Source: Rusavskia elegans
Lineage: Eukaryota; Ascomycota; Lecanoromycetes; Teloschistales; Teloschistaceae
Direction of reading: 5' to 3'
Assembly: GCA_011316305.1 (NCBI GenBank)
Contig: SAUG01000075.1
Location: 248,001-312,000 of the forward strand
DNA length: 64,000 nt
Shown here: piece by piece, positions 1-48,800 of the stretch
Layout: each line of letters starts with the position of its first letter
How positions within the stretch are numbered: the first letter of the stretch is position 1
Made by a program: the position numbers and the translations under genes
Notes under the pieces: model-generated
Database searches by the model: none
What the model was told of the DNA's origin: nothing
The model's input: the letters and a program-made list of their open reading frames with translations, nothing else

Positions 1-72
1 CCCAGGGTCCAAGGAACAATTAAGGGTGTTTTTGGCGGGCGGAGGACTCGCCGGACTAGGAACAAGCCTGGC

Positions 73-112
73 TATGGCGGACGGTAGGAGGCTTCCAGAT
101 AAAACAATTCCT
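73..112 (+). repeat. Left terminal inverted repeat of the 12.4-kb block
   Basis: This 40-bp terminal inverted repeat pairs with 12467-12506, with 3 mismatches. It is preceded by CCTGGC at 67-72. Unlike the interior it keeps TpG and CpA dinucleotides, so RIP fades at the edge. Confidence 0.8.
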
Positions 113-1462
113 TAAGCCGTAGAACGTCGATCCTAGGATTTTAAAGCTATAAATACCTAGTCGTATAGTAGATTTTTAACTTTCTATTATATTTTAATAA
201 CTTCTATAGTTTATATTTAATATTATATTTATTATACGTTTAGATTTTAAAGTTTAAATAGTTATAATAATATAAATAGCCGCTATTAAACGTATATTCG
301 TCTAAATAAAGAATATATAAAAGTCTTTATATAAACTTTTTTTTTTTTTTATTAAAAGCTAATTTTTTTAAAATATATATAGTATTTAATCTCTATTTTA
401 GATAATATTTAATTTCTATTTTACTTTATTTTTCTATTTCTAGAATATTCTATCTATTATATAATAGTAAAAGAATTTATATTAATTATACGATAGATAA
501 TATTTCTATAAATAAATATTTTTATATAAATTAATAGATTTTCGGGTTAACTAATTTTTATAATTATTAACTAAAATTTTATTCCGTTTATATAAATAGA
601 TAGAAATCGTACTATTTTAATTTTACCGGAACGTAATATTATATATAATTTCTAGATTATTATAGTAATAAAAATCGTAATATTTTACTTTTTATATATA
701 ATAGCTATCTTTATCTAGTTTTAGAACTAACGGATAGTTTAATTCTATAAAAACTATTAAAATCTTTAAAATTTAAAATATTAAAAAGTTTTCCTATTAT
801 ATATCTATCTATTTAAATATTATAGCGGGTATTATATTAACTATAAATAGTTTAACTATATTATATATTATACTATATAAAATAGTAATTTTTTATCCGA
901 ATTTTTAAATAATAATAATAAAGAATTTTTATTATTAAATTTATCGGAGTTTTTAGATAATAATAATAATAATAGTAAAATTTAAAATAATTTACCGAAT
1001 AATAGCAGCTTAATTAATATAGAGTTTTCTAGAAATTTAAACGTTAGTAGCAGCTTTATTAATGTTATAATTCTAATATCTAGTTAGATAATTTTTAATT
1101 TAGTTTTCGGACCTATTTTATCGTATAATTTATTATACGTAAAGTAAAAGGATAATTAGATCGATAATAGATAGTTCTATTTTTAAAACTATTTTTCTAT
1201 TTTATAATTTTTATATTAGCTATAGATAGCTATCGTATATCTACTTTTTAAAAATTTAATCGATAATTTAGATTTCTATATAGTAATTAAAACTAGTAAT
1301 ATAAATCGGTAGTAATATAAATATTAAATTATTAGTTTATATAAAATTAATATAGATTAAAATAAATAGAAATTAAAATTAAACTTTTATTTCTATATAT
1401 AATATAATTAATCCAGCTATAATCTTTTTCTATTATCTTTTTATTATATAATTTTCTTTTAT

Positions 1463-1672
1463 TATAGAATTCCAAGCTGATTTTCTATAATTATAGAAAA
1501 ATGAGATATTTATATATATAAATATTTCCACGCTAGACCTATACCCGCTTCTATATCCGCTTTTACGATTAGTAACCGAATTAGTTAGTATCCGAATTTA
1601 TATATAACTATATAATCTAAATATATATTCTATAATTCTTTAAACTATTCGAATAATTTAGAATTCTAATTA
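1463..1672 (-). repeat. 3' LTR of the gypsy element
   Basis: Starts TATAGAATTC and aligns over about 210 bp with 8666-8875 at a constant offset of 7203 bp. Most differences are C/T or G/A, as RIP predicts. The last few bases of the boundary are uncertain, and no target duplication could be read. Confidence 0.75.
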
Positions 1673-4600
1673 CTATATTCTTTCCTTCCTAAATAAAATA
1701 TAGAAGGAAGTAAATATTTTCTAAAACTAAATAGTAATAGAAATAAAACTATAACTAGTAATAGTAAATAAAGTAAAATAAAGAATACGAATTTACCTTC
1801 GTACGATTTATATAGAAATAAATAAGTATATTAGCGGGAGCTCGATATCGACTACTATAACCTCGAATTTTTTAACTTTCGGAACTTTTTCTCTTAATAA
1901 TATTATCGATTATCTACTCTAATAATAGTAATAATAACTATTATAGTATATCGTATCTAATCCGGCAGCAGTTAAAATTATTATAAAATTTTTATAGAAT
2001 AATAGATAGCGAGCTAATAAAGTAGTAATTATTATTCGTAAAGATAATTACTATCTTTATATAGTAATAGATACTATAAATTTGACTATTCGATAAAAAT
2101 ATTATTTATATTAGTAGTTCTATTAACTCGTTTTAGGAAGTATTACCTTTTCTAATAATTTCCGGCGCTAAAATATTAAAATTCGTATAAAATACTTCGG
2201 TAAACTTAGCCGATTTATCTAGATTATATATCTATAGAAATTTAATACTATTTTTATATAAATAAATCGTTCCTTAGATATATACGATCTATTTCTTTTC
2301 GAATAACTAATTTTATTCTAGCTATATAAAACTTAAGCGAGTAAGTTTTATAGTTTTTATACTAGCGATATTACCCGTCCTTTCGTATATTATATAAATA
2401 TACGATAGGAATTTAAAAGTATATATAGTAACTACCTATAAAAGTATTATTAAAGTAAATATCTATATTTATCTTTATATAGATTATAATCTATAGTCGG
2501 TATAGAACTTCTATTATAGATATAAATCCCGTAATTTTTTAAAAAATAAACGGATATAAAAGTTAGAAACCGTATAGATAATAATTCTATACCGTTTCTT
2601 TTTATTCTATTATAGCTACGTCGATCGTCGTCGAAGCGAATTATAGACTATAATATTTTTCCGCCTGATTTTCTATAGAATAATAGAGGCTTTAGTCTTC
2701 TAGCTTTATCCTCCTAGTTTACTATTAATAACTCTAATAGATCTAGATATAAGAATAAATTTTCTATAATTTAAATCGAAACTTCGTTAATAAATATAGT
2801 TAAAAAAAGAAAAGCTAGGAGTCGTCTATTAGCTAGATTTCTATTATATATATTAAAGGCTATAAACTCGTTTATTTATATATTTTTATCGGATATTAAT
2901 TATATATAATTAGAATTTTAGTTTAGTTCCGGGCCTTTTTAGAGATTATTTTTTCTTTTTTCTACGCCTTCGGATCTAGAAAGTATACTACTTTTACCGG
3001 CCGCTTCTATTAACGCCTATATAGCTTGCTATAAAGTTTACTGTATATATATCTTTAAAATATAGTACGTAGTAGCTTAATATTAAATAGATCGGCTCTA
3101 GAGTAAAAGGAAACGCGAATATAAAAATCTTAACTTTACTAATAAAAATCGCTCTAGTTTTAAATAGGTACTTCGGTCTCGTTAAAGGCGGTAAATATAC
3201 TAAAATTAAAGAATAGTAGATAGTTATTTAGATTTCGGTATAGCTATATTTAAGGTATAATAGTTATATTATAAAGGACGGCCCTATTATATCTTAGCTT
3301 TATACTAAAATATAAAAAGGATCTAATTTTCTAAACTTTTAATTTAAATATTTCCGGTTTAATAAATATATATTATATATATTTTAGAATAAAAAACCGT
3401 ATCTAAAATTACTATTAAATTTTTATTAAATATAATTTCGTAAACTAGTAAAAAACTCCGCTTTTAGTATTATTTTAGGATTATTTATATATTTATTTAT
3501 TCCTTACTCTATAGAAAATTAACGAAAATATCTTTTTTTTAAAATAAATAAAAGGTAAAGACGTTATATTTAAACTAGAATTAATTTATATTTTAATATA
3601 TACGAATATATAAAATAACAAATAAAATTAAAAATCTAATTAATTTTTCCTTTTTTTAAAGATTTATATTTTATTATTATCTTTTTTATAGAGATTATTT
3701 TTAGATACAGACCTAAATTTAGATAAATAATTATTATCTAGATTTTCCGCTAGTTTTAGTTTATAAAATCTTTTTCGCTTACGCTTTTCGCCTAGTAGAA
3801 GCTGTTCTATAGTAACTTTTCTTAGTCTTCTACGCCTATAAAGTATTTTCTATCTAATAGTAATATTTTCTTTTATAAAGTATTTTTTTATACGATTTCT
3901 ACTAATTAGATATTTATTAGCGGATTTATTAAAAGGTTTTAGAATATAAATATTTAAGATTTTAGTTTAAATAACCTTATATAGACTATACTAGTTAACT
4001 TTAAACTTTTAAAATTATTTAATTTTAATTAAAACTATATTTCCTTTAATAAAAGTATTACTTTTTATTTTCGCGTTCTATATCTTTTTATTTATCTTTG
4101 TTTATACTATTATATCTTTAAATACTTTAGTTCGATTACGCGAAAGAAACGGCGTAAAATCGATTCTTTTATTATATTCTTCCGGAAAAAGGCTAGAAAT
4201 ATTAGTCGGTAGCGTCGGGTTAATACTATAAAATAAATAAAAGAGAAAAAATTTAGTAGTTATATATATACGAATACGCGTAGTAAATAGAATTTAATTT
4301 AAATAAAGATTCTAAATCTTTTTCGACTACCCGATATAGTATTTAATAAATATTTTCCTAAAAACTCTATTAAACCTTTCGACCGCGCTATTTATTCGAA
4401 AGTAATAAAGTATCGTACTTCGATATTTAACTTCTAGTAGGTAGTATACCTTATCTATAACTAGAATTTAAAGATTTATATTTCGATTAGTAATAATTTC
4501 TTTTAGAAAGCTATAATTACGATAGATCCGATAGATAATAAATTCGGCTAGTACTTCTACTATTATATTTAGAAGCGACTAAACTATAGGCTATCTAATA

Positions 4601-7600
4601 GTATAGTTAATTATAGTTATAATCTATTTATTACTCTAGTTAGTTTCTAGTAAAAGACCGATAAAATCGAATCTCTAGTATTTAAAAGGATTTAATCTAT
4701 TTTTCTAGGTACTAGAAAGATATATTATATTCTATTTAATATCGCGAAAGATAGTAGTAAACTAACATTCGGAATAGTATTTAATATAATATTTAATATC
4801 TTTTTTTATCTCGGGCTACTACTATTTTATATAAATAATATCTATTATTATTTCGTATAAATAGTAACTATATTATTTATAGATATAGTCTAGGAAGTTT
4901 ATACAAGCCTATACTAAAGTATAGAATATCTAACTATTTTAAAGCAAGTCCCGGTATTATATTATATTATTTTTAATTCGGAGATAATATTTATATTTTT
5001 TTAAAGTAACTTTTATTTCCGGATTATTAGGCAGGGTTCCGGACTCTATATAAACTCTAATAGTATTATTAAATAAAATTATATAATTATTAACTTTACC
5101 GGTAAATAGCTAGAAGTCTTTTTTTCGGTTTAATATATCTACTACTATTATCTTACTATCCGGTTTATATTTAATATTAAATTTATATTTTTTAAATTCC
5201 GTAAGCTAGTAAATAAGCCTTCTAGAAGATTTAGTAATAATCCTAAAATATTATAAACTTATATAATCCGTTCTAATAATTATAGTTATTCCGTTTTCGA
5301 TATAGTAGCGCTATCGCTATAGAAATTCTTTAATAGTAAAAAGCTTTTATTTGTAGATAGCGTAGTTACGCTCTATAGATATAAATACCTTACTTTCGAA
5401 AATAATAGATTATTTAATACTATTAGTATTAATTTAATAGAGAACAGCGTCCTATCTAAAGTCGGAAATATCCGTTTTAATAATAAAAGATAGAGTTATA
5501 TTAGACTAAATAAATACTTTATTATTTATTATAACGTTTTTAATTAGTTTATATATATTTCGAATTTAAAAATTTATTCGGATTAGTTTATATTTTTTAT
5601 TTTTTAAATCTAAAATTAATTTATAAAAAAGCTTATATATTAAAGCGAAATCTTCTATAAATCTTCGGTAATAGATATATAATTCTAAAAAGGACCGTAT
5701 ATTATATACTATTTATAGCGGCAGCTAGTTTCTAATAGCTTTTATCTTCGCTATATTTATACGGACTTTTCTATTACTAATAATATATCTATAAAATTTA
5801 ATATATTTCTAGAAAAATAGATATTTCGAAGGTTTTATAAATAGTTAATTCTTTTCGAGTATCTCTATAATAGCTTTAATATACTATAGGTACTCCTCTT
5901 TATTCTTCGAATAGATTAAAATATTATCGAAGTAAATAACTATAAAATTATTAAAAAACGGTCTAAATATATTATTTATTATAGTTTAGAATATTATAGA
6001 TATATTCGTTAATCTAAATAGTATAACTAAGAATTTATATTTACTAGCTTTAATATTAAAAGCTGTTTTTATACGATTTTTATCGATAACGTTAATCTGC
6101 TAGTAACCGTTTATTAGATTAATTTTACTAAAGTACTTCGCTATCCTGATAGTATCTAGATAATTTTAAATTTTAGATAATAGATATCTATTCTTCGTAG
6201 TTATATTATTAAAGCCCCGGTAGTCGATATATATATACTAGCTACTATCCTTCTTTTTAGTAAAAAGAACGGGCGCGCTTTAAAAAAATTAATTTAGTCG
6301 AATTAATCCTCGCTCGGTAAAATATTTAATCTAATACTTCTACTCCTTATTTTATTTAAGAGATAAGCTATAATAAATTTAATTAATAAATCGAGTATCG
6401 CCGGTTTTAATTATATAATCTAATAGCCTTTCTAGTAGTAGTTTTATTAGAAAATTATTTTAGAAATAATTTAGAAATTTCGGGCCGAAAACTCTATCTA
6501 GTCCTATATAGTCTATTATTTTCTAGACCAGATTAAATTATTTTGGAAAATTAAATTCGTTTTATATAATATATAGGCAAGCCTATATACCTTTTCTAAT
6601 AAATCGTTTAAATTTTTTAAAATTAATTTTAAAAAACTCGGTCGGGATATTTTTAAAAAATTATAAATAATATATATTTGAAGCGCTATATAACTAATAT
6701 ATAATTCTATTTTTCTAGATTCGTACTTCTAGAATATTATAGTTAGGTACTAAGTAGTACTATTTCTAGAAATCTTTTTTAAAAATCAGATTATAGTCTA
6801 TATCCAATACTATATAAAGAGTAGTAATAGAAAAGATTCTATAAAACTATAAAAGCTTTATCGCTCCTAAAATATCTATAGTTTTACTATCTTCGAGCTA
6901 TATTCTACCCGATAACTACTAAAGTTCTAATCCTAGAAAATTAATAATATATCTAGTAATAAAATAGTTAGTAGTACCTAAATTAGTAAAAACTTCGAAG
7001 CGATTTCTACTAATCTCTAGGTTAAACTATATCTATCTATTAAGGTCCGGTATTTAATCTATATATAAAAGTCGTTTACTATCCTATATATCTTTAAACG
7101 ATAGTATTATATCGCGGGAAATAGTTAAAGCTTCTTCCGGCGTCCTTTTAGAGGTTATTTTTAATTCCTCGATTTTTATCTTAACTAGACTAAGCTATTC
7201 TTCTACTATTAAAGGCTTTTTATCGGCGTTATATATACGCTTAGATATATATAATACTATTTATTTTCCGATAATCTATTATTAACTATTATTAATAGGC
7301 TTTTTCTTTTAGAAAAAATCTATTCTACGGGAATATATTCCGGAATATAAATACTCCGGTAATCTTTTTTATAATAGCCAGGCTTCCTATAATTATAGTA
7401 TTTACTTATACTATTTAATCCCTTTTATCTATTTCTTTTTCTTTAACTACTTCGGTTTCGGCTACGGCCGCCTCGACTACTAGTATCTATAAAGTTAATC
7501 TCGGTAGTATTAGATTATTTAACTATCGAAAAAGTTATAGTATTCCGGTTATTATAGTATTTAATAGTAACCTTTTTAAATATTATTATAGTATTTATAA

Positions 7601-8665
7601 TATTTATAAAACTTACTAGTTATCTACTTTATTATTATAGAACGAAATATCTTTTAGTAACTATCTAGGTATTAGGCTTTAAATAATCGATAAAATACTT
7701 TAAAGTAGTATATTCGCTAATTTTACTCTTAATATCTATATACGATTTAATAAAAGTAGAATAGTAGTTTTTAATATCGCTGAATTTTTTATTTTAGGCT
7801 AATTTATATTAAATAGCTAAAGCGTTTTCTATAAAGTTCGGTTTATTCTATTATTTTAGAAAAGCCTTTTTAAAGTATTTCTAGGAGCTTTTATCTAGAT
7901 TAGAAACCTATTTAACGTACTACGGTTTAGTATTATTAATAAAATATTAACTACTATAGAAAACGGGGTCTATAATAGTTATACTATAAAATAAATAGTA
8001 GTATTTATAGCAGTAGAGCTAGGTATAGGCGATATAATAGTTACGCTTATAATTTTTAAAATCAGAAGATTTTTTATTATAGATATCCTATACTATATAG
8101 GCTATAGAAATATTAGAGATATTAGGAAAAATAAATCTACGTAATAGTAGATTAGAGTTTCTACTAGAAAGCCCTAGTAGCTCTAGATTAGAGCTACTAT
8201 AATAGGAACGATAATAATCGAAGCCGGTATAGCTGCTTCTATAGTTTATATAAAAATAATTAAAAGGTCGGTTACGTCTACTATTAGATCTATTTTCGTT
8301 ATCGCTATTATAAAAATTATTATTTCCGGAAGTATCTAGGGTACCCCCGAGACTAACGCCTTTTCTAGAAATATCCTTTTCTATAGTAGAGATAGTAGCG
8401 AATTAGACTGTAAATAAATCGTTTAAAGAAGTTCTATAATAGGATTTCTAGTTTATATAAACTTTAAAAAAGGCTATATTTTTATTATATACCGTTATTT
8501 ACTCTATACTAGTACCGAGCTAAAGGTAAAAGAAGTATTTTATTTAGGAATTTATATTCGAGTTTAGAAAATCTCGTTTATAAAGATAGATAAAACCGGT
8601 TTAAAAAAGCTTTAATAATAGAGTAAAAATAGATTATTTATAGCCTAAAAAGTTATTACTATTAG

Positions 8666-8875
8666 TATAGAATTCTAAGCTAATTTTCTATAACTATAGA
8701 GGAATAAGATATTTATATATATAAGTATTTCCACGCTAGATCTATATCCGTTTCTATACCCGCTTTTATAATTAGCAACCGGATTAGTTAGTATCCGAAT
8801 TCGTATATAACTATATAATCCAGATATATATTCTATAATCTCTTAAATCGTTCGAGTGATTCAGAATTTTAACCA
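8666..8875 (-). repeat. 5' LTR of the gypsy element
   Basis: Direct repeat partner of 1463-1672. This copy keeps more C and G (for example around 8850-8875) than the 3' LTR, so the two copies were mutated to different degrees. It is placed 5' because RT precedes integrase on the minus strand. Confidence 0.75.
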
Positions 8876-11800
8876 TTATATTATTACTTTTATTTCCGTT
8901 AACGTTCGTTCCGATAGATAAAAGCTTCTATTATATAAAATACCTATCTTTTAATATTATATAGTCTTTTAATTTTATAGTCTAAAGCTTTATTATCTAA
9001 AACCTAATTCTAAAAGATTTTCTACTATTTTAATTCTATATAATATTACGATTTAGTTTAATAACTAAAATTACTAACTATTTTATTAATATTTTATATT
9101 ATCGACTCTATTAATAGACTAAATAGTAATAGAATTAGAACGGAAAGGTTTATTATATAAAAAACTAAAAATATACTAGCTATAATAGCTTCGGATTTAT
9201 TTTATATAGTAAAAAGTAAAAGATTTACTAAATCTTCTTCCGCCGATAGAAATCGAAAATATTTAAAATTAATAGTTATAGTCTTTTTCTCTTATATAAT
9301 AGCTAGCTCTACTTTAATCCGAAATATTAAAAGTTTTTTTTTTAATTTATATAGTAATTAATAGCTTTACTTTTAATTTAATTTTCGATAATAGAAAATT
9401 TAAATTCTAGTTATCCGACGGTTTTATCTTAATATTTTATTTATATAAAAATATTTCTATCTATTTAGATTTAATTTTTTATTTATATAAAAAAGAACTT
9501 TCTTTAATAATATAGTAGATAATTAAATAGATTAGATAGCGGTTTAAAATAGAATTAAAATTATTTAGAAATTCTATAATAGTTCGTATATAATTAATTC
9601 TTTCGAGTCGAATAGTACCGTATTTAACTAATATTAAAATTATAAAATAAATCTTAAAGGTAAATCTATACGATTTCTTTTCTTCGATATTTATTATCTA
9701 ACGATAAACTATTACTAGAATAATATCGTAGATAAATTTTTATAGACTATTAATATTTTTATTATTAATTATAATTTAAAAAGTATTTAAAGAAATATAT
9801 ATATTATATAAATAGAAAATAGAATATAATAAAACTTTACTAAATTATTAAATAATTTAGTAATTTATTTTTAATTTCTTTATAAATATAAATTCGGTTT
9901 TTAATAATCTAGAAATAAATTTAGAATATAAATAATATAACGACTTTTTTTTTTTCCTTTTTTTAAATATTTAATTAATAGATTTCTATCTATTTTACTC
10001 TAATTTTTTACTATATATTATAAACTATTTAATATCTTTATATTCTACTAGTTAAAAAGATAATTATAAAAAAAAAAAAAAAAAAAAAAAAGACCGTATA
10101 GCTATAGTTACTAAATAGAACCTTTAATAAATTTAGTCTAAAGTTAATACTATACGGAAGAATTTATATAAAATAAAATCTTTTAAAATTAGAAATTTTA
10201 AAATTTTCTATTAAAATATTAAATTATATAATTTAGAAAACCGTATTAAATAAAGCGACGAAAGCTAGAAGAAAACGTAATAGAAATTATATCCGGATTT
10301 TAAAATACTATATAAATTCGTAGAAAAATATTATTAGAAATAAATATAATCTAATATCGATATTAGTTTTTAAATTCTAAAACTAAATTATATAAAATTT
10401 ATTTCGTTATCGTCTAGTATTAGATAGTACTTTTCTATACTATAGTTCTAGAAATATTTCGATTTATTATTATAGATATCGAATCTATTATATATAACTT
10501 TATATATTATATAAAAGGAATATAACTACTATAAAGTAGATATATTAGACGGAAGAAACTCGTACGATAAAAATTAATTTCGAAAAAAAAGAAAAGATAC
10601 GAATATATAATAGAAATAATAAAACTAAAGATTATTATATAAGCTATATATATATTAGTTAATTATTAACGGTATTAACTTTTATTACTAATATTATCTA
10701 AATTATTAACTATATATTTTAGATTATTTATTAAATTTACTTTTTATATATCTTCCGTATAGTTTTTTAATAGCTATTAATATCTACTTTCTTTTAATTT
10801 CTATATAAAATCTAACTATAGATTTATTTTATTTATTCGATAATTATATAACGTTTTCCGAAAGTTTTAATAGACTATATAATAAAGTTTTACTTATTTA
10901 TTATATAGAATTAATAGCGGATCGGTAAAATTAAAGTCGAAAAGCTAAAGCTATATTATATACTATATAAATATTATTAAAAGAAAATATTTATCTTTAT
11001 CTAACTAAAGTTAAACTATTATACGATTTAAAAGTTTCGCTAAATTTATTCTATTTTTTAATATTATTTTAGAATTCCGCTAGTTTTTTAGACGATAGAT
11101 ATATAATATAGTTATCTATTATATTTAGTAGATATATATAGAATATATATAGTTTATTTTTTAGATTATTAAATCTATTTTTTTATTTCCGAATATAGTA
11201 GCTATTCTATTTATTAATAAATTCTTTAATTTCGCGGTAGATAATTAAAAAGTAGATTATAAAAAAGATAATAAAATCTTTAATTTTATATATATTAAAA
11301 AGGCTAGTTTAAAAAAAAATTAGAAATAATTCTAAAATTTATACGAAATTAATAGAATTTTTTCGATAGAAAAGAAAAAAATATATAATCTAATAAAAGA
11401 GATAACTTTTTATAAACTATTTTTACTAGAATTCGATATATTAATTTTTAATATTTATATTATCGATAAAATAGTCTCGAAATACTATATTTTTATAGAT
11501 TATATAATATAGTTAATAATATATATCTACTATTATTAATATCTTTACTTTTTAATTTAATTATACGATAAATATTATTTATTTAAAAAGTTCTATAGAA
11601 TTAAATTACTATTTTAAAAAACTAATTAATATATAAATAGAAATTTCGATATAAATCTAAAAAATATAGCGAATAAAAATATTAATATTAGTATAGATTT
11701 TAATACTATATATTTTTAGTTTATTATAATTATTAAAAAACTAGATAAAATTTAGCCCGGATATAATATATTTTCTCTATAATTATTATATATTTATAAA

Positions 11801-12466
11801 ACGTTAGTTAGTATATTTAAATATAAAAAAACAGTATTAGAAAAAGAAATAATTTCTAAAAAAAATTAGTAATTATAAAATAGAAAAAAATACTATATAA
11901 TTTTTTAATAAATTTTCTATTTTTATAAAAATAGTTATAGAATTTAGTTTTATCTAAATTTTAGATAACTTTAAATTTAAATTTTCGTATAATAAAATTA
12001 TATATAATTTAGATAATCTATTTTCTTTTTTTTATTAAATTCTATTATTATATTAATTCTAAAATTTATTATAGTCGAATAAAATTAATTTAACCGATTT
12101 AATAATCTTCGCGCTATAAAATATAAAGGAACTTTTTATTATTAAATTTTATCTATTAGAAAAAGATTTAAATATAGTTTAAAAAGACTTTAGAATCTTT
12201 TATATATATCTATCGAATAATATTCTAGTTATAAAACTAGTAGTTAATTATATATTTTAAAACTTCGATCTAGAAATTATTATATAGAGTAGATATAATT
12301 TCGTTTAATATAAAATTAACTAAAAGTTAAAAAAAGATATAGTTTTTATATAAATTATTTAGTTTAGAAAAATATAATATTATTAAAAAAAAATAGAAAA
12401 AAAAAAAAGTAGAAGGTAAAATTATAATATTATACGGGGAATCTAAATTTTCTTTTATCCGAACCT
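8876..12466. other. RIP-degraded remnant of the host transposon
   Basis: This 3.6-kb stretch is AT-rich between the gypsy insertion and the right TIR. There is no open frame on either strand and no motif I can recognise. It contains a run of 24 A residues (10068-10091). Together with 113-1462 it is the likely body of the TIR element. Confidence 0.6.
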
Positions 12467-13726: not shown

Positions 13727-16700
13727 CTATTTCAGAATCTTGCAAATCAGATCTTGACCGTCCACCGAGTCGCCTTCCTTCACCTTGAGCTCCCCTACCT
13801 TGCCCGAATGCGGTGCGCTGATCACCATTTCCTAGCGAGAATTGTTAGCCAGCGCTTCTCAACGATCACCACCAGCGCGTGCAAAATGTCCGCAGACACT
13901 CCCATCCACCGACTTGTAACAGGTCGTCTTGCACGTGGACATGTCCATGTGTGGTTGCAAGAGTGATAGTGGTAGTAGCAACACATCGGTGATGTGATAT
14001 TAATGAAGTGCAGGCGTACTGCAACCCCTGAGAGCACAAAGAAACTCGAACGACTCACCATCTTCATCGCACTGAGGATAGCCACCGGGTCTCCTTTCTT
14101 GACCTCGCCCCCATCGTGTACTCGTACTTCCACCACCACTCCCGACATGGGTGCTCCCACTTGACTGCTGTCACTGCTGTCTGCCTTGGGCCGGCTGACA
14201 TTCTCTACCGCTGCGTTGTTGTCGTCGACCGTGACCTGCCGCACTTCGCCGTTCATCTCGTAGAAAACCTCGCGTTGGCCCGTCTGCTCCGACAACGGTC
14301 CAATGGCCAACAGCTTAAGGATCAGCACCTTGCCCTTCTCCAACTCCACGTTGAATTCCTCCCCAATCTCCGGTCGTGCCAGGAAGTATCGCGTTGGCAG
14401 CACGCTGAGGTCGCCGTACTTATTCACAAACTTGCGGTAATCTTCGAATACCTTGGGGTACATGGCGTAACTCGCGACATCGCATTCCGACGCGCTGCCG
14501 AACTTCTCGTTGATCTCCTTCTTGATCTTGGCAAGGTCCAGGGGCTCCAGGAACAGCCCAGGTCTCTTGTCCAGCTTGCGACGCCCACGGAGTGCGTCCG
14601 ACCGGAGCGGTTCCGGGAATCCTCCGTACGGCTGTCCCATTAAGCCTTCAAAGAATTCCAGTACGGATCCGGGGAAATCGAGTTCTTTGGCCTTATTGAT
14701 CACGTCGTCATAGCTGAGTTTGTTCGAGACCATGAACTGAGCCAAATCTCCTACAACTTTCGACGTAGGTGTCACTTTGACAATGTCCCCAAGCAGATCA
14801 TTGGCTTGCTCGTATGCTTTCTTCGTCTCGGCCCATTGCGTTCCCAGCCCGAGCTGCGAGGCCTGGAAGATCAAATTCGTAAGTTGCCCGCCGGGGATTT
14901 CGTGTTCGTACACTTCGGGGTCCGGCCCCGTAAGACCAGCTTCGAAGGGTGAATAGAGCAGCCGTAGTTGAGCCCAGTAGGTGTCTATCGCTCGAATGTG
15001 AGCACCGTTCAGACCTGGTTCGAGGCCGGTGCCTTCCAACGAGGCCAGCAGAGCGCCGACACTTGGTTGTGAAGTCATTCCCGACATGGCGTCGTTCGCG
15101 GTATCCACTGCATCAGCTCCCGCTAAGTAGATTTCGGAGTCAGCATTCTTTCTTTGAGTAAGTTTTCGGAGTTACTCGCGAGACAAGGGCTTTGGGAGGG
15201 GAAGAGCTCGGGAATTTACTGACCTTCCACACAGGCAACGTATGTTGCAATGCCGGTACCTGCTGAGTCGTGCGTGTGTACGTGAATGGGAAGATCGGGG
15301 TATTTGTTCCGGATCGAGCCAATGAGCAGCGTCGCGGCTCTGGGTTTCAAGACACCAGCCATGTCCTTGATGCCAATGATATGTGTACCGATCTTGACAA
15401 TCTTGCCAATCAAATCCATGTAGTACTCGAGGCTGTATTTTTTCTTGGGATTCTGATTAGGATATTAGTAAGTCCTGCGAGCCCGAAAAAGGAAAAAAAA
15501 TTCTGGCTAAGGAAGCGTTTTGACAAAAGAAAGGTCCAAAAAAAGTCCAGTGGTCTTGAAGGTGAATTGAGCTAAGAGCTCAACTCAGCCACCTTTTTGA
15601 GGTGCTTTGCCGTAGTGAAATGCATTTTGAGTCTAGACCAAACTGTCGCTGTGTAATCGCAATCGCTGCAGTGGTATCTCTTCGGATCATTATTAGCAGC
15701 AAGGGGTTTCTGTTGTGCTGGCTGTTTGACGGGCACGTTGATCCCAACCTTGTCGAGATGTCTTAGTGTCTTGAAATGATTGTTGAGGTCTCGCTGTGTG
15801 TTGGCATTGTGATCGCAATCGCTGCAGTAGAATCTCTTGGTGGCACGATTGGCGGCCCAAAGCTTCGTGCTTGCTGGGCGTGCAGGAGGCTTAACGATCC
15901 CAGCAGCATTGTCGAGGTGCTTTTGGGTAACTTTGTGGTGCCTGAGCTTCGCCCCAGACTCGAAGTTGACATTACAAAGGTTGCAGGCCCATCTCTTGTT
16001 AGCTAGGATATTCTCACGACTTTTCTTTGCGATTGCGTTTGCTTTCTCCGGCCCCTGCTTTGCCGCATCTCTGCGACTATCTCGTAACTTCCTTTCAGCG
16101 TCAAGTTGGTTGATTTGCTCGGGAGTAAGTTCGGTGTCACCGTCATAGACACCGTCATGCAAAGAGAAGTGTGAACACAAGCCGTCATACTCCAGAGTGT
16201 CGACCGCCCAGGGACAGAGATGAGGCATGCCGTAGTCCTTTGTGCGAGAAATCATGGCCCACAGATACAGACTAAATGCCGCTTCGAGGACGAGAAAGAG
16301 GGTGCGGAGAAGAATTCTCTCTGCAGCATTTGGCAGTGGTGCCCAGCACAAAAGTCCTTTGTGTGAAATCGTATATCCGTCCTTGATAGCGCGCTCGACA
16401 TGACGTGATAAACGGGTCCCTCTGTTGTACTCTCCCATCCGACGGACCACGCCGCTTCGCTTCTCCGTAGCAGATCCAATGTAAATTTTCGGACGATGGC
16501 CTGATTTCTCCAGCACAAGAAGATAGACAGCCCAGAGTTTGACGGTGTGTAAGGGTAAACTCTTGAAGTAAGCAATGGTTGGTGGAGTTTTAGTCTGGAG
16601 AACTTCCAAGAGACCAGGGGCAAAGGTGAAAAGTGAGGACTGCAGCAACTGTTCCATTACTTCTAGGGAGGGGAATCTGATGGCAAAGGCACCATTCTTG

Positions 16701-19590
16701 AGAGCGGCAGGTGTGAGAGAAAGGAATGTCCAGACGAGTAGAGCGAACTCGACGACGTCGGTGGTGGTAGGCGGTGTAGGTGCCATCGGTGAAAGTACTT
16801 TGGAGGTACCCTCAAGCAGAGCTGGAGTGGTAATGAAGGCCTCGCAGGACTGGTCCAACAATGTTGCACTGTGAAGTACTTCAGGATGTATCCTCAAGCA
16901 GAGCTGGATGGCGGGACTCGCAGGACTGGTCCAGCAATGGTGCACCGTGAAAGTACTTTGGAGGTACCCTCAAGCAGAGCTGGATGGCGGGACTCGCAGG
17001 ACTGGCCCAGCAATTGAACAGTATGTAAGTGGGCGTTTCCAGTGTTCCAGAGTGGATGTGAATAGCGGACCTTGCAGGACTTGTCCAGAAGTTGAAAGGA
17101 AAGCAGGTCGGACGAACTGAAAAGTAACCCCATTGCAGCTGCGGACTAGAACCAAGGAAAGAACGATGAGATAGGGAAAGAGCAAGAACGAAGAAGACGA
17201 GGACGTACTAGCAAATCGCCCGATATACAGACGGTCCCTTCCACGACGCCGCCGGCTGCCTTCACCGCCTTGATACCTACTTCAAGTTGGTCGATATCAT
17301 TCAGGGCATCAAAAATACGGAAGATGTCGACTCCGTATTTCTTAGCCTGTACGCAAAAATGATAGATGGCGTTGTCAGGTAGTCTAGAGACTGTTAGCAG
17401 TGACTGGATTACGGACAGAGTACCCACACTTACGATGAATAGGCAACACCATTGGCACCTCGTAGCAGCATCTGGAAAGGAATGTTGGGGACTGCCCTTC
17501 GCATCTTACGAAGCCGGTCCCACGGGTCTTCGTACAGGAAGCGCATCGCTACATCGAAGGTGGCACCACCCCAGCACTCTAGGCTCAAAGCGTTACTGTA
17601 CGCATAGCTGGTCTGTCTAGAAATGTTGAGCAAGTCGACCGTTCGGACTCGAGTCGCCAGGAGGGATTGATGGGCATCACGCCAGGTAGTATCCATGAGT
17701 AGACAGCCTTTGTTAGCTCGAACTGCTTTTGCAAAACCCTCTGGCCCTTCCTGGTCGAGTACATTCTTCCAGCCCTTTTGACACGGCTCCGACATGTCAA
17801 TAATCTGCCCGGCGTCATCCTTGAGCTCAGGCATGATGATATCGCCCTTGAACTTGGGTTCCCCGATCTGGCCCTTGATGCTACTTCCATTGACGGCAAC
17901 GTCTCCCAGGTAGCCCAGCAACTTCTGAGCACGGTTTTGGCTCCCGACCAAGGCAAACAATTCTGGGGTGTCGTCGATGAAAGTCGTCCAACAGGTTCCT
18001 TCTATGAAAGTAGGATGGGTCAAGAGTGAACCCAAGAATGGGATATTAGTTTTGACACCTCGGATCCTGAATTCCACGAGGGCGCGAAGCATCTTTCTCC
18101 GGACAATCTCATAAGTCGATGCCAGACATGTACACTTGACCAGCATGGAATCATAATGAGGCGTTATAATGGCGCCGGCAAAGCCGTTACCGCCATCCAA
18201 ACGAACACCGTTACCACCCGCAGAGCGATACACCTCGATCTTGCCAGTGTCGGGTGAGAAGCCTTGGGCAGGATCCTCGGTTGTAATCCTGCACTGGATG
18301 GCAAACCCGCGAGTGGAGATTCTGTCCTGGGTCAGACCCAGCTGTTCAAGGCTTGCACCTGCTGCGATTTGGATCTGGGCTGCGACAATGTCGATTCCGG
18401 TGATCTCCTCGGTAATGGTATGTTCGACCTGTATACGGGGATTAATCTCGATGAAGTAGTGCCTGTTCTTTTGGTCGACAAGGAATTCAGCGGTCCCTGC
18501 ATTGCGATACTTCACGGATGATGCGAGCTTGACAGCGTCAGCAAGGATAGCATCCCTTACACCCACTGGCAGATCTTTTGCAGGCGCAAGCTCGACAACT
18601 TTCTGATGCCTTCGCTGGACACTGCAATCTCTTTCGTAGAGGTGGACAACGTTTCCTTGGTTGTCGCCCAGAAGCTGAACCTCGATGTGCTTTGGCCTAT
18701 CAAGGAATCGTTCTACGAAGACAGTGCCGTTCCCGAAAGCCGACTTTGCTTCTGATGTTGCGCGCTCGAATGAATCCTTGAGGGTTTCTTGAGCCCTGAC
18801 GACTCTCATCCCGCGCCCGCCTCCGCCAAAGGCAGCCTTGATGATGATGGGAAAGCCATACTGATCAGTAAAAGCTTTGACGTCTTCAAACTTCTCGACT
18901 GGTCCCTCGGTACCGGGTACGACAGGCACGTTGGAAGCCATGGCGAGTGTTCTTGCAGAAACCTTGTCTCCTAATTTGTCAATGGTGTCTGGTGAGGGTC
19001 CGACGAAGATAAGACCGGCTTGTTCGACCTTCCTTGCGAATTCAGCATTCTCTGACAGGAAGCCATAGCCAGGATGGATGAGGTTAACGCCATGTTGTTT
19101 GGCAATTTTGATGATTTCGTCCCCGGCGAGATAAGCAGCGACGGGGGTGTACTGTCCTCTTTTGCCAATGACATATGCTTCATCGGCCTTTTGCCTGTGC
19201 ATGCTGAGGCGATCCTCATAGCTGAAGACAGCGACGGTCTGCAGTGAAAGCTCATGTGCGGTTCGAAAAATTCGGATAGGTATCTCCCTGCAGTAGAGTT
19301 CGGAGTCAACATGCCTGGAATACAGCTGTCTCGAGAGCAGGCATGGGATTGATCATAGTATGTCGTATCCCATGGCATAGCAGGGCATCCGATTGACGTG
19401 TCACTCGAGGTCTCGAATGTTAAAGGGGTGGGTGGAAGGAGCTCCGAAAAACGACTTACCCTCTATTGGCTACGAGGATCTTCTTCAACTCCATGATGGA
19501 GGAATTGGCGCGCAGCCTTTGGTGGACGGTGTGTTCCTTCCCCGAATGACCTGCATCGAAATGCTCTGCGTAGGGGTCATGGTCGCCCAT
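13727..19590 (-). CDS. PYC: Pyruvate carboxylase
   Basis: A biotin enzyme that carboxylates pyruvate to oxaloacetate using ATP and bicarbonate (anaplerosis and gluconeogenesis; cytosolic in most fungi). Exons: 19590-19460, 19287-17434, 17383-17209, 15452-15224, 15122-14059 and 13831-13727, all phase-consistent, giving 1185 aa, the usual length. The start M-G-D-H-D-P-Y is chosen because an in-frame stop lies upstream and K-K-I-L-V-A-N-R-G follows about 35 residues later. The N-terminal biotin carboxylase domain has the Gly-rich loop G-G-G-G-R-G-M. The carboxyltransferase domain follows (A-F-G-type core, D-M-A-G, H-T-H-D-S-A-G-T-G). The biotinyl domain has A-M-K-M with the biotinylated Lys near residue 1150, next to the last splice junction. 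Intron 3, after codon 720, is 1756 bp and carries a nested gene; the other introns range from about 50 to about 230 nt. Nothing suggests loss of function if that intron is spliced. Confidence 0.96.
15572..16786 (-). CDS. GIY-YIG nuclease-like protein with three C2H2 zinc fingers
   Basis: A single-exon ORF of 404 aa, on the same strand as its host gene, lying wholly inside intron 3 of pyruvate carboxylase. The N-terminal 80 residues are of unknown fold. Residues about 84-178 match the GIY-YIG pattern: A-V-Y-L-L at 86-90, K-I-Y-I-G-S at 100-105, Arg residues at 110 and 115-116, and a candidate metal-binding Glu at 168 in L-V-L-E-A-A-F. A charged linker (about 215-262) leads to three zinc fingers: C268/C271-H284/H290, C321/C324-H337/H343 and C373/C376-H389/H395, each ending in K/R-H-L, like U1/JAZ-type fingers. 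Start M-A-P-T-P-P is preferred. An upstream in-frame Met at 16945 would add 53 residues encoded by DNA tandem repeats. GIY-YIG domains plus DNA-binding fingers are typical of intron-homing endonucleases, but here the host is a spliceosomal intron. Activity is inferred, not shown. Confidence 0.8.
   Translation of the reverse strand: MAPTPPTTTDVVEFALLVWTFLSLTPAALKNGAFAIRFPSLEVMEQLLQSSLFTFAPGLLEVLQTKTPPTIAYFKSLPLHTVKLWAVYLLVLEKSGHRPKIYIGSATEKRSGVVRRMGEYNRGTRLSRHVERAIKDGYTISHKGLLCWAPLPNAAERILLRTLFLVLEAAFSLYLWAMISRTKDYGMPHLCPWAVDTLEYDGLCSHFSLHDGVYDGDTELTPEQINQLDAERKLRDSRRDAAKQGPEKANAIAKKSRENILANKRWACNLCNVNFESGAKLRHHKVTQKHLDNAAGIVKPPARPASTKLWAANRATKRFYCSDCDHNANTQRDLNNHFKTLRHLDKVGINVPVKQPAQQKPLAANNDPKRYHCSDCDYTATVWSRLKMHFTTAKHLKKVAELSS
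16789..17020. repeat. Tandem repeat, about 76-82 bp unit, three copies
   Basis: Copies start near 16789, 16871 and 16947, each beginning GTGAA(A)GTACTT and sharing CTCAAGCAGAGCTGGA and CTCGCAGGACTGG. A degenerate fourth part-copy (GCAGGACTTGTCCAGAAGTTGAA) extends to about 17097. The array sits directly upstream of the preferred start of the intron-resident GIY-YIG gene and is transcribed as part of the pyruvate carboxylase intron. Confidence 0.85.
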
Positions 19591-45866: not shown

Positions 45867-48800
45867 CGGTTACTTTTAGGCGCTATTATTTAATCCCCTT
45901 TCTACTATTACTATACTTCTACTATTTTCTCCTACTATTTATATAAATATCTTCTATCGTTTAACCCGCGATAATTTTAATAAAACTATTATTAACGGTT
46001 ATAAAGGCCGTATATCTTTTAGCTAAATAGAGAAAATAAGGCGAAATTAGAAAAAAGGCGGCGATATTATTACTAAATCGAAAGGGCTAAATAGAAAATC
46101 GATTCTTTTTAATAAAGAAAACTTTAAATAATTTAAAATTATTTTAGATTAGAAGCCGCTAGTCTATCTGAATAAAATATAATAGTTTTTATATAATTTC
46201 TATAGTACTATTATTAGTTAACTAATATTTAGTAGAGTTTTTAAAAAACTCTATTATTTTAGAAAAAAGGTTTATTATATCGCCGTCTAGAAATTTAATA
46301 AATTAAAAAAAGAATAGTATCGGTATATAGCTAAATAGCGTCTAGATTAAATCGTCTATCTAGATAAATCGGCGGCTTATAAGCGAATAGATTCGGCCTT
46401 TTCTTTTTCTTTCTACTAATTTAATATTAATCCGGTTAGATAATAGAAAATTCGAATAGAATTATATAAACGTATTTTATAAAATTAAATAGAATCTAAA
46501 ATATTTAAAAAAATAGAATATCTTTCTAATATTAGATATAATAAAATATATTATTTAAAGAATTATTTATAGAAATTATATAAACGAGTTTTTTAACTAA
46601 TTCGTTAGATAATACGTTTTATTTAAAATAGGTTCCGGTAATAACCCTCGTTTAATACTAGTATTAAATAATACGAAAATCTATTATAATACCGAATTAA
46701 AGAATATATACGCCGCTATAGGCGTTATATTAATATTTCTGCTTCTATATTTTCCGGATTTTAATTCTATCGAAATCTTATTTATATTACTAAAAATATA
46801 GATAAAAAAAAACTATAGACTCGTAAATATCTATAGCGAAAAAAAAAAAAAATTTCTAAACTTTTTTAATAACGCTATAGAATTTTAGATATAGAATAGC
46901 GAGCTAGCAGGCCTATTTCGTAGTATAGATTATATTTAAAAACTTTAAATAGAAATATATAAAGACTATCGCGAGGAATTAATTAAATCTAAACCGTTTA
47001 TACGTATAAATAACTTTTCTTTAAAATCTCTATCTATTTTATTATAGATTATTATTATTATTATTATTATTTAGCCTAGTATAATAGACACGATTATCTA
47101 GATTTTATATATTATCTTTATTAAATAAATTTTTATAATCTTTCTACTACGTCTAATTTTATATAATCTATTATAAAAGGTTTTCCGCCGGTTTAATACT
47201 AAAACTAGTATAGAAAAAAAGATTATTCTGAAAAAAATTTAATTAAAAGCGAGGAGGAAATAGCTACTAGCTTCTATATTATCTATAAAATTTGCTAAAT
47301 TCTTTTAAAATGAATTTAATAATACTAGACTTTATTTTAAACGCGTTCTATTTTTTTTTTAAATAAAAATTCCGTTTTTAATTTTATAGTACTATAAGAT
47401 TATAGCCTATATTTTTAATAGAAACGAAAGTATTTTATAACTTTTATATCTTTACCGGTCTAATATAGAAAAAATATTATAGAAATTCGTCGGGTTTACT
47501 ATTAATAGAACTATTTAAAGGAACTATTAAAGCTTTAGGCTGTCTAGTATCGATAGTAGTAGGTCTAGCTCTATTTAAAAAAGACGAATAAAATAGTAAT
47601 CGAGTTATATACTACTATTAAGCCTATAATTATAGATATTTTTACTATTTTCTTTATTCTAGTCTTTCTTTTTATTTTTTTCTATTCTACCGGTCCCGAG
47701 CTATATTTTACTAGATTAAATAAACTAGTATCGTATTATTACCTCTATCTAGTTAAATAATAATAGGATTAGAATTATTACTAGCGGTAGTCTTTATAGT
47801 AATATCTTTTTTCTATTATTTCTTTTTCTTTTTTCTTTTATTTTAGTAGAGAATCTAGAATATATATAGCGATAGATTCTCGAAATTATAGTCTTTTCCT
47901 TTATCTATACTACTAGCCTAGCTAACGATATAAGGTATACTAATTCTATAATAATAACTATTATAATTATTAGAATCCTTTTAGTAATAGATATTCGCTT
48001 TTAAATCTCTCTATTTATATATAATAGACCGGTAGCGGAGTTTTTTCTATAGCTTTTAGACTTTTAATAGAAGTTAACCTTTTATAATTCGCTCTTTATC
48101 GCGTTTAGCGGCTTCGAAAGTAAAGATTTAAATAGTAATACCTTTTTTTAATATAGGAATTTAAGATAGAAGTTAAAGTTATTTAATTAAAATCTATAAT
48201 AATATCGTTTTAGCCTTTTAGTTAAATATTATAGATAAAATTATATATTTTTTACCTTCGATTAAATACTATCTAATCTATTTAGATATTTTCTACTAAC
48301 GGCCGAAAGCGAAAATATCTAGATTAATTTTAGTAGAAGTCTTTTTATATAGTTTCTAAAATATAAATTTAAGTTTTATATTAATCGAAATTATATTAAA
48401 TAAAATAATTTCTTTTATAATAACGTACTTCCTTATAATATTTCTCGCTAAAATAAAGAAATTATTAAAATCGATATAATTTCTTCTACTAGAAATTATA
48501 TTAACCCGATTTATATCTAATTCTTTTTTATTAAATATATACTTTTAGATAATAGAATAGCTATATAATTTCTCTTTTTTTTTCTTTTTTAAATCTAGAT
48601 CCAGATCTAACGATAGCGAAACCGGCGGTAGTAAAAACTTTTTCTATTACTTTTTTACTATAACTATTCGAAGAATATTATTTTAAAAAGTCTAAATAAA
48701 AAGAATCTAGCTTCTAGAATTAACTAATAGTATAGAAATAGGAAAATTATTATTAGAAAAAATACTAGTATAAATATTTTCGTCGATTTAGTTTTTAATA

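Follow-up and report, generated by a model that had tools for sequence, protein, structure and literature searches.

The origin of new spliceosomal introns is a long-standing question. Introners, which are mobile spliceosomal introns, occur in many similar copies per genome and, to our knowledge, carry no endonuclease open reading frame (ORF). Among the GIY-YIG homing endonucleases that group I introns of phages and organelles encode, I-TevI is a modular protein, built of a nuclease, a linker and a DNA-binding part, with a conserved coding sequence as its target. In mirusviruses, so-called shintrons nest an endonuclease gene (HNH, GIY-YIG or others) in a spliceosomal GT-AG intron, show target-gene specificity and are proposed to home into intronless copies; they lie mostly in viral morphogenesis genes, and that study states that such endonucleases had previously been unseen with spliceosomal introns (PMC12768974). 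The His-Cys homing endonucleases of nuclear rDNA group I introns also act in the nucleus and home to an intron-lacking allele (PMC9548176). The fungal nuclear genome of Ustilago maydis contains UMAG_11064, a gene derived from a GIY-YIG homing endonuclease (PMC7593156). Here, we describe a 64,000-nucleotide stretch of the genome of the ascomycete Rusavskia elegans (contig SAUG01000075.1, positions 248,001 to 312,000; hereafter the window; contig C194 in a genome of 44.2 Mb and 217 contigs), in which a GIY-YIG nuclease ORF lies inside an intron of the pyruvate carboxylase (PYC) gene. This ORF very probably encodes a homing endonuclease that rides a spliceosomal intron, which would make the element a cellular ‘spliceosomal homing intron’ (‘shintron’). 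Its parts, with the evidence for each, are as follows:

15453..17208, minus strand: the whole element, a phase 0 GT-AG PYC intron of 1756 nt (both flanking exons, GDLL/NPKKKY; Pfam PYC domains on each side)
17203..17208, minus strand: 5′ splice site GTACGT (sequence)
15464..15470, minus strand: TACTAAT, branch-site-like, close to the 3′ end of the intron (sequence)
15453..15454, minus strand: 3′ splice site AG, with CAG in the intron end (sequence)
17209..17383, minus strand: PYC exon 2, with GDLL as its last residues at the insertion site (splice joins and reading frame)
15216..15452, minus strand: PYC frame beyond the insertion site, from NPKKKY onward, with the exon end near the end of this stretch (reading frame)
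15572..16786, minus strand: intact GIY-YIG/C2H2 endonuclease-like ORF of 404 aa, on the same strand as PYC (open frame, relatives, predicted fold)
16163..16540, minus strand: predicted GIY-YIG nuclease domain, about residues 83-208 (predicted fold, conserved residues)
15596..15991, minus strand: three C2H2 zinc fingers, about residues 266-397 (Pfam below cut-off, conserved C/H columns, secondary structure of the model)
16789..17014, minus strand: 76-bp tandem repeat in 2.9 copies, immediately 5′ of the ORF (Tandem Repeats Finder score 319)

An earlier note on this DNA had proposed an intact same-strand ORF inside a PYC intron with consensus donor, branch and acceptor, and both points are borne out: the intron reads GTACGT...TACTAATATCCTAATCAG, and the signals GTACGT, TACTAAT and CAG are all present. 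The PYC protein is continuous across the site, so that splicing of the 1756-nt intron, by the spliceosome, is implied by the sequence; the preceding PYC intron (17384-17433) measures 50 nt. Group I or II introns were sought with Rfam between 15300 and 17400 and no family reached its gathering score, the sole match being sub-threshold and irrelevant (E 0.12). The element thereby differs from introns of the I-TevI type in being spliceosomal, nuclear and devoid of a ribozyme recognizable by Rfam, and its protein differs in having three C2H2 fingers. With regard to the His-Cys case, the nesting is reversed: a self-splicing group I intron of rDNA is the host there, and the endonuclease gene itself contains a spliceosomal intron (PMC9548176). 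UMAG_11064 is an inactivated mitochondrial cox1-type gene located in a telomeric helicase gene, and the term ‘spliceosom-’ is absent from the main text of PMC7593156.

The predicted structure of the protein consists of a GIY-YIG domain, a long helix and the three C2H2 fingers, of which fingers 1 and 2 are kept across the family, as judged from conserved C/H columns. Among solved structures, the predicted fold of the nuclease domain is nearest to the catalytic domain of I-TevI. At about Y88, Y102-I-G104, R116 and E168, both Tyr, the Gly and the Glu are invariant and the Arg is conserved in at least 90% of 64 sequences; we assume for these residues the roles that their counterparts have in I-TevI. 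The Pfam GIY-YIG profile gave no match to the window protein at E≤1 and was absent among the best 25 of the 104 families matched by the 64 members, Foldseek by itself was weak (I-TevI at E 0.24, rank 20, with zinc-finger chains ranked higher), and a profile run against PDB sequences recovered the finger part only among the best 60 of 314 matches. A viral library returned zinc-finger and weak GIY-YIG matches, and for this reason no giant-virus origin is claimed. From the predicted fold and the conserved residues, the central domain is predicted to belong to the GIY-YIG nuclease superfamily, in keeping with the core and three fingers proposed earlier.

Relatives of the protein numbered 186 at E≤1e-3 in 5.8 billion proteins, and the best 120, mostly unnamed or hypothetical, were examined. 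Scans for further relatives among viral contigs (28 pattern matches) and bacterial and archaeal genome contigs (30 pattern matches) confirmed none. The search for relatives passes over proteins much longer than its query, so fusions with host genes were sought with a composite query. It returned nine long proteins, all nine of which join the nuclease ORF to a conserved housekeeping protein, in fungi of four classes (Sordariomycetes, Leotiomycetes, Dothideomycetes and Eurotiomycetes). Identified by record names and Pfam domains, they are:

PYC fusion: Pochonia chlamydosporia
DED1-type helicase fusions, at two sites: Fusarium nematophilum, Lachnellula arida and Pseudogymnoascus
Aconitase fusions, at two sites: Zymoseptoria tritici and Meristemomyces frigidus
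HSP70 fusion: Fusarium culmorum
ATP synthase fusion (alpha subunit by our reading): a Chaetothyriales species
PMT1 fusion: Neocucurbitaria cava

We read these nine as gene-prediction chimeras, in which a nested nuclease ORF seems to have been welded to one or both halves of its host. That the nesting is itself an artefact of assembly or annotation, the chimeric models just joining neighbouring genes, might be suspected from the mostly unnamed or hypothetical status of the listed relatives and from chimeras being by nature mispredictions; its probability is close to negligible, since the nesting is read from DNA both in the window and at a second locus in the same genome (SF3B1, below), host sequence flanks the nuclease on both sides in P0122, P0123, P0127 and P0128, and the Pochonia chimera returns to PYC at the exact site of the window. 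The nine public fungal models (P0066 and P0121-P0128) seem to be misfused and may need correction.

The Pochonia chimera passes from nuclease to PYC at SPGKKYNLDYY; the window sequence right after the insertion point, NPKKKYSLEYY, aligns with it. In DED1 helicase cores of 344 residues, the Sordariomycete and two Leotiomycetes are 92.7-97.1% identical to each other, and the window genome is 86.6-89.0% identical to this group; by this lower identity, the window fungus appears to fall outside the sordariomyceta clade to which Pochonia belongs. The PYC site is accordingly occupied in two fungi that seem to be of different clades. Identity between the nucleases reaches 56.5% for the PYC pair and 53-57% for the three DED1 copies, and lies at 33-48% for all remaining pairs. 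The five same-gene pairs average 53.1% against 40.6%, a difference reached in 13 of 20000 label shuffles, whereas fungal class does not account for identity (11496 of 20000). In a tree of 127 rows (129 sequences minus P0034 and P0128), whose bootstrap was not fully settled, the window and Pochonia PYC copies fall together in a 25-row clade (100/94), a 24-row clade (100/100) contains all three DED1 copies, and the three Sordariomycete copies are spread over three clades. The two aconitase copies, which exit their host at different sites, show no raised identity (42.2%). Relatedness of the nuclease thus tracks the host gene and not the class, and the PYC and DED1 clades give the fungal family the target-gene specificity described for mirusvirus shintrons. 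A common DNA target at the two DED1 sites was looked for by eye and discarded, the likeness being too slight.

A protein search of the window genome found one further coding match, decayed and truncated, with 41% identity across the aligned stretch and one in-frame stop; the copy counts given here are lower bounds. Its location is as follows:

L002:1265-1873, genome contig C7, same strand as the host gene: decayed nuclease copy in a 609-nt intron of SF3B1

The exon that follows matches solved SF3B1 (E 8.5e-237), a splicing factor gene of the core spliceosome, and the copy is read as what remains of a second homing intron. The intact and the decayed copy, the two found in this genome, therefore both lie in spliceosomal introns, and with the nine chimeras elsewhere they answer the question raised earlier of whether paralogues also sit in introns. 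Two rival explanations bear on these copies. The first, that a host gene, either domesticated or simply nested (such as a nuclease for DNA repair or regulation), lies in the PYC intron by chance, would fit the single intact copy, the intact ORF and the conserved catalytic residues; it is nonetheless highly improbable, as the host genes differ among fungi, the nucleases cluster by target site and the genome holds a decayed copy. The second, widespread intron insertion by a transposon or introner-like element, would account for the presence of the nuclease in many genes across fungi. We give it a very slight chance: the PYC intron was not found a second time in a DNA search of the genome, protein queries with five divergent relatives recovered no additional nuclease copy there, no inverted repeat of at least 14 nt was found linking both ends of the intron, and distant fungi use the same site. 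The element also departs from introners in that one intact and one decayed copy were found, at conserved sites.

The orthologues in the window genome of the seven sites occupied in other fungi (two in DED1, two in aconitase, and those in HSP70, ATP synthase and PMT1) are all intronless, the frame reading straight through; the first aconitase site, judged by eye, has other introns close to it and none at the site itself. At the PYC site, GDxL/NPxKKY, 81 protein fragments were compared, of which 12 read through and 20 enter a GT-type intron exactly there, while the other 49 could not be classed owing to nearby introns or ends or to distant protein sequence. Nine of the 12 intronless fragments, from metagenome-type sources, continue into apparent further intron or foreign sequence and are therefore unspliced; the remaining three (P0145, P0149 and P0163) come from other sources, two of them NCBI, and may be spliced models or transcripts. 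Intron length could be measured in three of the 20, where the frame re-enters the next exon out of phase, giving 59, 112 and 221 nt, which is too small to hold the ORF. Empty and normal-sized states of the PYC site, whose existence the earlier note had made a check on its reading, are thus on record.

The 221-nt intron (P0141), which lacks the ORF, has leader sequence in common with the region that precedes the ORF in the nuclease relative P0007 (score 72). The PYC-intron tails of P0138 and P0132 likewise match the extension of P0007, with scores of 241 and 171, and 30 rounds of shuffling the tails gave 54 at most. Equal-length contig pairs from the same source, one member with a PYC fragment and the other with a nuclease, number three against 0.28 expected (P 0.001 with jittered lengths; P0145 left out, and the P0002/P0179 pair not counted as its sources differ), which suggests that PYC exon and nuclease relative lie on one contig in each; of the nucleases concerned, P0008 belongs to the PYC clade, and P0029 and P0108 do not. 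Several PYC fragments (e.g. P0131, P0158-P0161 and P0181) stop right after GD, which in our view marks an intron placed a few nucleotides 5′ of the site (GD-A/TG), giving two intron positions within about 5 nt; P0181 is the fragment that pairs, by equal-sized contig and same source, with P0108 of the different clade.

The short introns of 59, 112 and 221 nt at precisely the PYC site, and the leader that P0141 has in common with P0007 (72 against a shuffled maximum of 54), would be expected if a nuclease gene had entered an old, pre-existing intron at GDxL/NP and the ORF, with or without its leader, homed between intron alleles, an explanation that we hold to be rather unlikely. It sits poorly with the 12 of 32 readable PYC fragments that have no intron, nine of them clearly unspliced, and with the intronless state of the window genome at all seven other target sites; moreover, what is targeted is conserved coding sequence, for which a nuclease aimed at introns would have no need, and its recognition site would hardly be conserved in the introns of different classes. 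What probably happens is that an intronless allele, once cut at a conserved coding site, receives a copy of the entire intron.

The cycle that we propose for the homing intron would run as follows. Once two PYC alleles share one nucleus, the GIY-YIG domain, guided by the C2H2 fingers and the linker, would cut the intron-lacking allele at GDxL/NPxKKY, and repair of the break would copy the intron together with its ORF into that allele. The spliceosome, in place of a self-splicing ribozyme, would then excise the intron and leave the PYC enzyme unharmed. After fixation, the ORF would decay or be deleted, so that a short intron is left, or the intron would disappear altogether, and rare transfer between fungi would start the cycle anew, for which reason the tree would follow target site and not host species. 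Cutting, homing, horizontal transfer and the order of events are what we infer from the range of states that a single site displays (without an intron, with a short one, with a short one that has the leader and no ORF, and with the intact ORF), the decayed copy, the conserved targets and the clustering by site, and the selfish homing element suggested earlier is to that extent upheld by the checks run.

Three further observations concern the locus and its family. Arms of 14 nt at 15471-15484 and at 16838-16851, 16914-16927 and 16990-17003 could pair in RNA with one G·U, the 14 base pairs joining the upstream 76-bp repeats to the stretch just 5′ of the branch site; shuffling equalled the helix energy in 5 of 500 and in 4 of 500 cases, and no counterpart is seen in the SF3B1 remnant (114 of 300). 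Such a helix might loop out the ORF and aid splicing, a hint that stands outside the explanation given above. The dipeptide SS occurs within the final eight residues of 68 of the 120 listed relatives against 1.6% of internal 8-mers, 25 of them ending in SSS and 14 in SS followed by at most two residues and LD (in the window, 15572-15580), and could either serve as a signal in the protein or reflect a feature of the DNA or RNA where the ORF ends. Finally, positions 1-12000 and 46001-48000 of the window are AT-rich (15-24% GC against about 50% in most other parts), as we would expect of repeats degraded by RIP.

In the literature covered, which took in neither most subscription papers nor bioRxiv, no report was found of nuclease-bearing spliceosomal introns in cellular nuclear protein genes. 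Shintrons have so far been described only in mirusviruses, and the PYC case is best read as a cellular shintron: it lies in an ascomycete nuclear housekeeping gene, its protein couples GIY-YIG to C2H2 fingers, and the words ‘fungi’, ‘fungal’ and ‘C2H2’ are absent from the main text of PMC12768974. Together with its relatives in other conserved genes of distant fungi, it suggests that the nuclear spliceosomal introns of cells can spread in the way self-splicing introns do, by homing. The wider proposal, on which we are evenly divided, is that fungal homing endonucleases move spliceosomal introns whole, also from class to class, placing them in conserved coding sites that lack an intron, and that a short intron without ORF stays behind when the nuclease is lost, which would be a new route of intron gain in cellular genomes. 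The family supplies natural GIY-YIG and zinc-finger proteins with predicted target sites, and its nested ORFs account for one kind of erroneous gene model in publicly available fungal genomes. If true, a cellular, site-specific, nuclease-driven intron would offer a concrete and testable mechanism of intron gain, and the homing strategy would need any splicing system and not specifically a ribozyme.
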